Shown: positions 6,094 through 9,609 of the stretch, piece after piece | How the letters are laid out: each line of letters starts with the position of its first letter | Numbering within the stretch: the first letter of the stretch is position 1 | Source: a virus | Length of the DNA: 21,005 nt | Virus record (IMG/VR): IMGVR_UViG_3300030202_003349 | Location: 1 to 21,005 of that record | Direction: 5' to 3' (one strand) | The notes under the pieces: model-generated | Told to the model about the DNA's origin: nothing | Seen by the model: only the letters and a program-made list of their open reading frames with translations | Database searches by the model: none | Made by a program: the position numbers and the translations under genes

Positions 6094-6111
6094 AGTGAGG
6101 GTTTCCTCACT
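6094..6111 (+). promoter_or_regulatory. Stem-loop at the 5' end of the psbA leader
   Basis: AGTGAGG (6094-6100) and CCTCACT (6105-6111) form a perfect 7-bp stem with a GTTT loop. It lies within a few bases of the predicted start site of both psbA promoters. There is no T-run after it, so it is not an intrinsic terminator. A stable 5' hairpin commonly protects an mRNA from decay; that role here is inferred. Confidence 0.55.
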
Positions 6112-6168
6112 TGACTATTCGACGCCTCACCGAGACTAAACAGCGTCATTAAATAAGAGTCTCTCATA

Positions 6169-6191
6169 CCTGATCTGGAGGGTAGATCAGG
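6169..6191 (+). promoter_or_regulatory. Second stem-loop in the psbA leader, GGAGG in the loop
   Basis: CCTGATCT (6169-6176) pairs perfectly with AGATCAGG (6184-6191), leaving the 7-base loop GGAGGGT. The stem is 8 bp. The loop contains a Shine-Dalgarno-like GGAGG, but it is about 60 bases from the psbA ATG, too far to act directly. Just before the psbA ATG (ccctatttcaa) there is no Shine-Dalgarno sequence. Together the two hairpins suggest a structured leader that tunes psbA mRNA stability or translation. Confidence 0.5.
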
Positions 6192-6239
6192 AATATTATA
6201 CTCAGTGCCACCCCGCACTCATACATAACCCTATTTCAA

Positions 6240-7319: not shown

Positions 7320-7337
7320 TATAATCTGCTATAATGT

Positions 7338-7363
7338 GGGAGGTCTACGGACCTCCTTTTTTT
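7338..7363 (+). terminator. Intrinsic terminator of psbA
   Basis: GGAGGTC (7339-7345) and GACCTCC (7350-7356) form a perfect 7-bp stem with a TACG loop. Seven T residues follow (7357-7363). It lies 19 bases after the psbA stop. An extended -10 element, TGCTATAAT (7327-7335), sits immediately in front of it. Confidence 0.92.
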
Positions 7364-7385: not shown

Positions 7386-7616
7386 ATGCACGGCAGTTTA
7401 GATCCAGAAGAGAAAGTATTACCTGATTGGTTTGCTCAGACTTCTGATATGCCTTACGATAGGCATGAATACCGATTTATCTTTTCTAACCAAGAGAGTA
7501 TAATCTTTAAGAGTTATGAAGAGGTAATGGAACAATGGTTCAACACTCCACCACTCTTCAAATCACATGTGGAAGTGCTTGATACAAAGAAAAAAACAAA
7601 TGGAGGTTTTAAATAA
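7386..7616 (+). CDS. Small hypothetical protein between psbA and psbD
   Basis: This 76-residue soluble protein lies between the psbA terminator and psbD and ends 2 bases before the psbD start. The composition is ordinary and rich in aromatic and acidic residues ([38 protein letters not shown]), with a short basic tail. There is no signal peptide, membrane helix or recognised motif. Its last codons contain GGAGG (7602-7606), the likely ribosome-binding site of psbD, which supports co-transcription. I do not recognise the family or function. Its fixed place next to psbD suggests it belongs to the photosynthesis block. Confidence 0.7.
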
Positions 7617-7618
7617 TC

Positions 7619-8674
7619 ATGGTCGCATCAACTTTAACTCAACAAAGGAGGGGATGGTTTGATATCCTGGATGATTGGCTTAAACGCGATAGGTTCGTTT
7701 TTGTGGGCTGGTCTGGTATTCTGCTCTTCCCTACAGCTTATCTTGCTCTTGGCGGGTGGCTTACTGGGACAACGTTTGTCACCAGCTGGTACACCCACGG
7801 TCTGGCAAGTTCGTATCTTGAGGGCGCGAATTTCCTTACAGCAGCAGTTTCGACTCCTGCTGACGCTATGGGTCATAGTCTTCTTCTTCTCTGGGGTCCT
7901 GAGGCTCAAGGCAGTTTCGTCCGTTGGGTCCAACTCGGTGGACTCTGGCCTTTCGTCGCGCTACACGGTGCATTCGCTCTCATAGGTTTCATGCTCAGGC
8001 AGTTTGAAATCGCTCGTCTCGTCGGAATTAGACCCTACAATGCTATTGCTTTCTCTGGTCCTATTGCTGTCTTTTGCAGCGTCTTTCTCTTATATCCTCT
8101 GGGACAGTCGTCCTGGTTCTTCGCGCCATCGTTTGGGGTTGCCGCTATTTTCCGCTTCTTACTTTTCCTCCAGGGATTCCATAACTGGACGCTCAACCCG
8201 TTCCACATGATGGGTGTCGCCGGTATCCTTGGTGGTGCTCTGCTCTGTGCCATTCACGGTGCTACTGTAGAGAACACACTGTTTGAGGATGGAGAACAGG
8301 CAAACACATTCAAAGCATTTGAACCAACTCAAGAAGAAGAAACCTATTCGATGGTTACTGCCAATCGTTTCTGGTCACAGATTTTCGGTGTTGCTTTCAG
8401 TAACAAGCGTTGGTTGCACTTCTTTATGTTGTTCGTACCTGTGATGGGTCTCTGGACTTCATCAATTGGTATCATTGGACTTGCTCTTAACCTTCGTGCT
8501 TACGACTTCGTATCACAAGAAATTAGAGCAGCAGAAGATCCTGAGTTTGAAACGTTCTATACTAAGAACATTCTACTCAATGAAGGTCTCCGTGCTTGGA
8601 TGGCACCTGCCGACCAACCACATGAGAACTTTGTATTCCCTGAAGAAGTATTACCAAGGGGTAACGCTCTGTGA
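7619..8674 (+). CDS. psbD: Photosystem II reaction-centre protein D2
   Basis: This 351-residue protein is full-length D2, the partner of D1 in the photosystem II core. The numbering runs one residue short of the common 352-residue forms. The redox-active tyrosine YD is Tyr159 (in [13 protein letters not shown]). Its neighbour His is H188 (LQGFHNW) and the P680 chlorophyll ligand His is H196 (NPFHMMG). The protein begins typically ([24 protein letters not shown]) and ends in the usual [17 protein letters not shown] sits 12 bases before the ATG. The stop TGA is embedded in the GTG start of the next gene (GTGA), so expression of the following small membrane proteins is likely coupled to D2 translation. 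Like psbA, it is richer in G and C than the flanking phage genes. Confidence 0.99.
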
Positions 8675-9099
8675 TAAACTCTTTCGGGTTCCTCGCACTC
8701 CGACTCTGTGTCGGGGTGCTTCTTATCCATCATGGATATGAAAAATTAAACGACATTGAGAACTTTGCAAATGCATTCGTAAGACCACTGCATTTACCAT
8801 TCCCAATCTTCTTGTCCTACATTGCTGCTTTCTCTGAGATTGCCGGTAGTTGGGCATTGATTGTAGGAGTTGGTGCTAGACTTGGTGCTCTCTCAATCGT
8901 AGGCACCATGTCGATTGCTATCTATCATGCAGTTATGACTAGTGGATTCAACATCTATCTGTTAGAACTCTTAGGTCTGTATTGGGGTGGAGCAATTTGT
9001 GTCTTACTATGTGGACCCGGAATGTTCTCGGTAGATCATTTAATTAAGACTAGATACGGTACAGTATTAAAAGAAAACTTCGATCTCATGGGGTCCTAA
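8671..9099 (+). CDS. DoxX-family membrane protein, GTG start
   Basis: This 142-residue hydrophobic protein has four predicted membrane helices (about residues 4-20, 45-65, 68-90 and 97-118). It begins with the DoxX pattern: [18 protein letters not shown], then ENFANAF and a helix with [14 protein letters not shown]. DoxX/DoxD proteins are small membrane subunits linked to quinone-dependent oxidation and redox stress in other bacteria. The start is GTG at 8671, overlapping the psbD stop by four bases; the first downstream ATG would remove much of the DoxX fold, so GTG is preferred. The position directly behind psbD suggests action in the thylakoid or cell membrane alongside photosystem II, but the reaction is unknown. 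The next gene starts at its stop codon (TAATG). Confidence 0.8.
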
Positions 9100-9335
9100 T
9101 GCTAATCGGATTACTCTACTTTGCTTGTTTATTTGGTATTGGTGGAGCAGCATTTGCACTGATGTATAGGAACATTCAATCCATCAGTGAAATGAACAGA
9201 CCAACCATAACCAGAAGGCATCCAGAAGCACCAGAACCTGGTGAAGAAGTAATGTATGTGGATGTCTCTGGTATGAATAGTCAAGACTTCAACGATCAAA
9301 AACAAAGATTAGAAAAATTATTTGAAGAACAATGA
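9099..9335 (+). CDS. Small single-span membrane protein of the psbD operon
   Basis: This 78-residue protein has an N-terminal membrane helix (about residues 2-24, with GLLYFACLFGIGGAAFALMY). A polar tail follows, holding NRPTITRRHPEAPEPGEE, a short predicted strand (VMYVDVSG) and a charged C-terminal helix (QKQRLEKLFEEQ). The helix at the extreme N-terminus with a basic residue after it suggests anchoring with the tail in the cytoplasm. It is coupled to both neighbours: TAATG with the DoxX gene and ATGA with the PsbN-like gene. I do not recognise the family from a characterised protein. The context points to a role in the membrane with D2. Confidence 0.75.
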   Translation: MLIGLLYFACLFGIGGAAFALMYRNIQSISEMNRPTITRRHPEAPEPGEEVMYVDVSGMNSQDFNDQKQRLEKLFEEQ

Positions 9336-9445
9336 TTGCTGGAATTAGTTTATCAGTCCTTGCACTGACATTATATGGTATCTACCTAGGGTTTGGTCCT
9401 CCTTCTAAAGGACTAGACGATCCATTTGATGATCACGAAGACTAA
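9332..9445 (+). CDS. psbN: PsbN-like small membrane protein
   Basis: This 37-residue frame has one membrane helix (about residues 3-19) followed by YLGFGPPSKGLDDPFDDHED. That tail matches the conserved end of cyanobacterial and plastid PsbN, which reads approximately TAFGpPSxxLrDPFeeHeD. PsbN is not a stable photosystem II subunit; in chloroplasts it is needed for assembly and repair of the reaction centre, which suits a phage that supplies D1 and D2. It is slightly shorter than host PsbN (about 43 residues), lacking N-terminal residues. The ATG overlaps the preceding stop (ATGA), and the stop overlaps the next start (TAATG). I read this frame directly because it is very short; the tail motif makes the assignment fairly strong. 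Confidence 0.8.
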   Translation: MIAGISLSVLALTLYGIYLGFGPPSKGLDDPFDDHED

Positions 9446-9573
9446 TGTCGGATCATTCACATCAGGAACCAAACGGTGAGAGTACCACACTGAAAGAGTT
9501 GATAATTGGTTGTGCAGTAGTATTTGCATTCACCCTTATCTGCTTCTTGATAATGCTTGCAGGGATGCTCTGA
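9445..9573 (+). CDS. 42-residue single-span membrane protein, last of the psbD operon
   Basis: The frame starts with TAATG overlap with the PsbN-like gene and ends 13 bases before a terminator hairpin. The N-terminal 17 residues are polar (MSDHSHQEPNGESTTLK) and the rest is one long hydrophobic helix (ELIIGCAVVFAFTLICFLIM). This layout, a short polar N-terminus plus one helix, is typical of small photosystem and cytochrome subunits, but no specific family matches by eye. A role in membrane complex assembly is a guess from position. The overlap pattern and clean membrane profile support it being real. Confidence 0.65.
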   Translation: MSDHSHQEPNGESTTLKELIIGCAVVFAFTLICFLIMLAGML

Positions 9574-9585
9574 ATATGTTATACT
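9557..9585 (+). promoter_or_regulatory. Extended -10 promoter abutting the psbD-operon terminator
   Basis: TGTTATACT (9577-9585) is an extended -10 element. A weak -35-like TTGCAG lies at 9557-9562 with 17-base spacing. The predicted start is about 9592, inside the terminator hairpin, so a new transcript would lack the 5' arm of that hairpin and could run into the gene at 9611. Confidence 0.4.
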
Positions 9586-9609
9586 AGGGGGAGTTGATCC
9601 CCCTTTTTT
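9586..9609 (+). terminator. Intrinsic terminator of the psbD operon
   Basis: GGGGGA (9587-9592) pairs with TCCCCC (9598-9603) across a GTTGA loop, extended by A9586-T9604. Six T residues follow (9604-9609). It ends the psbD-DoxX-PsbN-like run, 13 bases after the last stop and one base before the next ATG. Confidence 0.9.

Follow-up and report, generated by a model that had tools for sequence, protein, structure and literature searches.

A candidate operon for the maintenance of photosynthesis in a T4-like marine cyanophage, with psbD at the head of an overlapping string of genes for a DoxX-family protein, a PsbN-family protein and two further small membrane proteins

The window, by which is meant the whole 21,005-nt stretch of viral DNA analysed here (positions 1 to 21,005 of IMG/VR record IMGVR_UViG_3300030202_003349), carries a compact run of six genes downstream of psbA, flanked by genes for plastocyanin and ferredoxin. 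The genes and terminators of this region, all on the + strand, are as follows.

7338..7363, +, terminator with an 8-bp stem and a T tract, between psbA and p76
7386..7616, +, p76, first gene of the unit, of the DUF7441 / phrog_897 family (PF24225, 87.3 bits)
7619..8674, +, psbD, D2 protein of 351 aa (TIGR01152, 755 bits against a cut-off of 600.6; PF00124)
8671..9099, +, DoxX-family membrane protein of 142 aa with a GTG start (PF07681; phrog_4606, 'TQO')
9099..9335, +, p78, 78 aa, of the phrog_275/32637 family, a distant DUF2973 relative with host homologues
9332..9445, +, PsbN-family protein of 37 aa, N-terminally shortened (PF02468), with the host-type C-terminal tail FGPPSKGLDDPFDDHED
9445..9573, +, p42, single-span protein of 42 aa from a phage-only family (71 IMG/VR loci and S-SCSM1)
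9586..9609, +, intrinsic terminator, hairpin and T tract (-13.2 kcal/mol, z = -2.2), identical to the copy in locus L018

From psbD onwards each gene overlaps the next, through GTGA at 8671-8674 (psbD/DoxX), TAATG at 9097-9101 (DoxX/p78), ATGA at 9332-9335 (p78/PsbN) and TAATG at 9443-9447 (PsbN/p42), and the initial annotation had described these five genes, their four junctions and the single terminator at the end correctly to the base. Its description of the operon as led by psbD is not exact, since p76 ends only 2 nt before the psbD start codon; p76 lies upstream of psbD in many other loci as well. The series p76-psbD-DoxX-p78-PsbN-p42, bounded by two terminators, is thus likely to be a six-gene transcription unit in which psbD comes second.

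A scan of the region for sigma-70-like promoters returned one match where 4.8 are expected by chance, and the late-promoter motif CTAAATA has two matches in the window, below the chance level, with none near the operon; both results weigh against the proposed operon. A TATAAT/TATACT box directly precedes both terminator hairpins (TGCTATAATGTGGGAGG... and GTTATACTAGGGGG..., window 7333-7363 and 9578-9609, respectively). Immediately 5′ of psbA, at window 6107-6204, is a PhotoRC-II RNA (RF01717, 61.7 bits), already described from cyanophages as a candidate cis-regulatory element. As a point of nomenclature, PHROG 182 labels D2 as 'photosystem II D1', and the same label is found on psbD in RefSeq phage records.

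The overlaps recur in independent phage contigs in which the frames are under selection, and the pattern is therefore not a product of chance. The GTGA junction between psbD and DoxX is present in 32 of the 39 IMG/VR loci that have both genes, and the entire five-gene string is kept with the same four junctions in three loci (L012-L014). Two others (L016 and L017) preserve the last three junctions base for base while accommodating a relative of another small gene, p81, between psbD and DoxX, and the junctions past p78 also recur base for base in L063. Synonymous changes prevail in every frame, as expressed by dN/dS values between the window and L016 of 0.094/0.873 for PsbN, 0.114/1.286 for p42, 0.044/0.230 for p78 and 0.004/0.189 for D2, and between the window and L013 of 0.003/0.216 for DoxX. 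The corresponding ratios for the small frames (about 0.1 for PsbN and p42, about 0.2 for p78) are rough owing to low counts. Absence of the small frames from relatives had been named beforehand as one outcome that would speak against the operon; all three are conserved and under purifying selection. In the comparison with L016, the synonymous divergence of PsbN and p42 (0.9-1.3) is several-fold above that of psbD (0.19), which suggests that exchange of psbD, or constraint on it, is independent of the small genes next to it.

Among the 80 best p78 loci, drawn from at least 546 IMG/VR relatives, 67 have psbD upstream of p78 in the same orientation, and most of the remaining 13 end at a contig edge. 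The p78 family is also represented in 206 cultured-phage records, and the DoxX search led to 45 viral contigs; no cultured-phage record was found to match more than 80% of the operon. Around the psbD-p78 pair the gene content is variable. Orders with PsbN include psbD-p78-PsbN-p42, psbD-DoxX-p78-PsbN-p42 and psbD-p81-DoxX-p78-PsbN-p42, and those without it include psbD-p78, psbD-DoxX-p78, psbD-DoxX-p81-p78 and psbD-p78-p42; diverged lineages (L064-L066 and L068) have p78-PsbN-p42 without DoxX. What follows psbD is accordingly a modular cassette that has been shuffled, with DoxX, PsbN and p42 as optional parts, and not a fixed unit of five genes. Because these three genes vary among relatives, none of them is required for the delivery of D2.

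This fluidity has to be weighed as a possible explanation of the whole arrangement, in which a frequently recombining psbA/psbD region has gathered short light-related genes, the overlaps reflect compaction, and the products act independently of one another. A hot spot near psbA has been described (Sullivan et al., 2010; PMC3037559), the phages in question often have small gene overlaps, and the members of the cassette vary freely. In L018, as in L015, p42 directly follows p78 with no PsbN between them, and the L018 junction of p78 and p42 retains the TAATG together with 15 nt (ACGAAGACTAATGTC) identical to the PsbN/p42 junction of the window, as would fit a recombination event at this breakpoint that added or removed psbN. 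Adjacency in the phage may thus mark a light-gene hot spot instead of joint action, which counts against a role of the small proteins as D2 helpers. Set against this are the persistence of p78 behind psbD in most of the best loci, a GTGA link to DoxX that endures while the neighbors change, and a gene content biased toward photosynthesis or light stress, and we regard packing at a hot spot as a possible, if on balance doubtful, account.

The 37-aa product, termed PsbN-like in the initial annotation, belongs to the PsbN family, scoring 61.5 bits against PF02468, for which the Pfam cut-off is 25. It scores below the cut-off of the NCBIfam equivalog PRK13183 (57.9 bits against 70), the first 12 positions of which are absent, and because it is the short N terminus that costs it this cut-off, the protein is filed as a shortened member of the PsbN family and not as an equivalog. 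Its hydrophobic stretch (residues 1-19) is followed by a hydrophilic tail of the host type, the topology used to recognize PsbN. The protein is conserved in L013, L016, L017, L063, L131 and diverged loci, and PsbN is present in 92 of 101 Cyanobiaceae genomes. A host-type PsbN adjoining p78 and p42 has been seen only in uncultivated contigs. For this protein and the 42-aa p42, collections were searched with alignments and not with single sequences. PDB sequence searches with p78, DoxX, PsbN and p42 returned nothing significant.

Of the two remaining small membrane proteins, both unrecognized in the initial annotation, p78 does have recognizable relatives. It consists of an N-terminal membrane anchor and a conserved tail (HPEAP..GEEVMYVD), and the window protein has no Pfam match, DUF2973 (PF11189) included. 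Weak DUF2973 matches appear in 9 of 15 phage relatives (best E = 3.7e-4), the best host relative reaches 19.1 bits against a cut-off of 22.2, and a profile-profile alignment covers the full length (probability 91%, E = 1.2e-6); on these comparisons p78 is classed as a distant relative of DUF2973 and not as a member. Homologues of p78 with 38-46% identity occur in 26 of 101 Cyanobiaceae genomes, those of DoxX have 54-70% identity, with host copies reaching 65-70%, and both genes are derived from the host.

In these hosts, 30 of 56 p78 loci have a high-light-inducible (hli) type gene no more than 1.5 kb away, set against an expectation of about 1% (genomes of 2.6-3.3 Mb hold 10-14 hli-type matches), a difference that serves as an indication and not as a P value because related genomes are not independent. 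In 18 of the 56 loci DoxX lies within 4.1 kb of p78 and in the same orientation, and a pyridoxamine-phosphate-oxidase-like gene and a photolyase gene are found in this host stretch as well. The p78 of marine Synechococcus overlaps p81, which in other phages is located between DoxX and p78. The phage and host neighborhoods of p78 agree, and hence point to light stress and PSII. The phage p81 gene itself (L004 4935-5180, in ACG-2014i, and L161 4177-4422) is labelled 'carboxylesterase'; as it has no Pfam match and its host homologue, 81% identical, is the gene overlapping p78 in marine Synechococcus, this label is probably wrong.

p42, by contrast with p78, remains without a known host homologue. 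Its relatives (36-46 aa, 71 IMG/VR loci) have an EPNGE motif followed by one membrane helix, and only sub-threshold matches were obtained in Pfam, NCBIfam, PHROG and the PDB. Among 251 Cyanobiaceae genomes there were four marginal matches (E 0.002-0.008, about the chance level), and among 194 genomes of Cyanobacteria there was none, in searches that recovered five of five positive controls, with phage controls scoring 1e-22 to 1e-30. In the genomes sampled, p42 is thus restricted to phages, and it seems to be an accessory that phages themselves have added to the photosynthesis module. The family sits either behind psbD/p78 or between plastocyanin (petE) and PTOX, the latter in S-SCSM1 and eight IMG/VR loci (L115, L116, L119, L120, L122-L124 and L126), and given this second position p42 is equally likely to be linked to electron transport or to PSII repair. 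Immediately ahead of PTOX, S-SSM4 carries a diverged PsbN (L009 2899-3108) and S-SCSM1 a p42 relative (L002 6001-6135), two different small membrane proteins at the same place. A p42-like layout is also seen in the L019-L027 group, where another single-span protein, of 32 aa (MNEHS... or MDDHS...; L019 1100-1198, L024 4621-4719), precedes glutaredoxin.

The DoxX-family protein is well supported as such (PF07681, 69.6 bits against a cut-off of 23.6), and DoxX has been labelled a terminal quinol oxidase, both as T4-GC555 (Sullivan et al., 2010; PMC3037559) and in phrog_4606. If the label were apt, DoxX and p42 could act on the plastoquinone pool in PTOX-like handling of quinol or redox state, with PsbN and p78 secondary, and the operon would couple the renewal of D2 with relief of over-reduction; the petE-p42-PTOX loci and the plastocyanin and ferredoxin genes flanking the operon are in keeping with such a role. 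However, the window protein has no match at E ≤ 1 to DoxD (PF04173), the small subunit of thiosulfate:quinone oxidoreductase (TQO), its relatives fall just below the cut-off (22.2 and 19.9 bits against 22.7), and the oxidase activity of DoxX is an annotation only. The oxidase label is not supported by this comparison with DoxD, and we consider an electron-valve function of the operon rather unlikely.

Conceivably, DoxX could instead be a membrane-protein assembly chaperone that assists the folding or insertion of D2, much as NACHO/TMEM35A, which is DoxX-like, does for receptor subunits in eukaryotes. NACHO/TMEM35A, an assembly factor according to its PDB entry, is the top PDB match of the predicted DoxX structure (probability 1.00, TM 0.61/0.65), and no other gene is joined to psbD as tightly as DoxX. 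The match is nonetheless weak (E-value 0.46, from a model with a mean pLDDT of 73), four-helix folds are common, and the host copy of DoxX does not adjoin psbD, so that a chaperone role is a lead only, and an improbable one.

We lean, with somewhat better than even confidence, toward an operon with which a T4-like marine cyanophage would maintain photosynthesis, and in which D2 would be co-translated with helpers of PSII assembly and of the light-stress response. A single message most likely spans p76, D2, DoxX, p78, PsbN and p42, and the stop/start overlaps would tie translation of the last four genes to that of D2, so that the helpers would be present at the membrane during D2 insertion. The role of PsbN is well grounded: Synechocystis RCII complexes contain it, and assembly and repair of the D1-D2 reaction center in tobacco require it (PMC4823308, PMC11449106, PMC12164590). 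The phage protein most likely acts like its host counterpart, promoting the joining of pre-D1 and pre-D2 into the PSII reaction center in the course of repair, whereby phage D1, from the neighboring psbA, and phage D2 would take the place of photodamaged subunits. p78 and DoxX, captured from the host light-stress neighborhood with its hli genes and photolyase, most likely stabilize or protect new D2 or reaction centers, or relieve redox stress in the membrane, and p42 may serve the photosynthetic electron-transport module, with either PSII or the plastoquinone pool as its place of action.

The initial suggestion that the phage delivers D2 with its own assembly helpers is borne out to the extent that the pairing with PsbN fits the known role of that protein, and weakened by the optional presence of DoxX and PsbN among relatives. 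Loss of psbN in Synechocystis, moreover, gives no strong phenotype (PMC4823308, PMC9145668), which also counts against D2 helpers. That D2 is made together with PsbN, p78, DoxX and p42, and that these four bind pre-D2 or RCII, is a tentative proposition that may well fail; if true, p42 and both the phage p78 and its host homologue would be undescribed factors of PSII assembly or photoprotection. An operon that joins D2 with PsbN and with light-stress proteins of the host offers concrete candidates for the assembly of viral D2. In addition, a widespread and unannotated picocyanobacterial protein, p78, becomes linked to PSII and the high-light response through two independent neighborhoods, in phage and in host, and p42 represents a newly defined family of small phage-only proteins tied to photosynthetic electron-transport genes.

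Parts of this inventory are already known, namely psbN in cyanophages (T4-GC163) and DoxX (as "TQO"). In the literature searched, no description was found of the coupled arrangement, of the link of p78 to host light stress or of the p42 family, no mention of DUF2973, and nothing combining DoxX with cyanophages. T4-GC163 was reported to occur in all Prochlorococcus phages and in no others (Sullivan et al., 2010; PMC3037559), and in one data set from the Pacific the PsbN family ranked near the top in abundance among viral genes for photosynthesis (PMC8940887). The PF02468 domain is common to T4-GC163 (29.4 bits in P-RSM4, 37.3 in S-SSM4) and the window protein. The T4-GC163 copies, however, are 49-101 aa long, extended at the N terminus and diverged in the tail, and are encoded at a distance from psbD, next to gp5, the clamp loader or PTOX; assignment of the window protein to this type was rejected, as it has 37 aa, no extension and a host-type tail, and is encoded within the psbD operon.

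T4-like cyanomyoviruses such as S-SM1 and S-CAM22 have psbA followed by psbD, as in the window. In S-SM1, a short gene (T4-GC987) precedes psbD and a p78 relative (T4-GC988) directly overlaps its end, but unlike in the window DoxX, PsbN and p42 are absent after psbD. The ACG-2014a/h/i phages, although they place p81 between DoxX and p78, and PsbN and p42 were not found there, share with the window the GTGA overlap of psbD and DoxX and the downstream p78 relative. The p78/DoxX/hli neighborhood of host Cyanobiaceae differs more, in that psbD does not adjoin it, several genes intervene and hli is on the opposite strand, but it contains homologues of both the p78 and the DoxX of the window.
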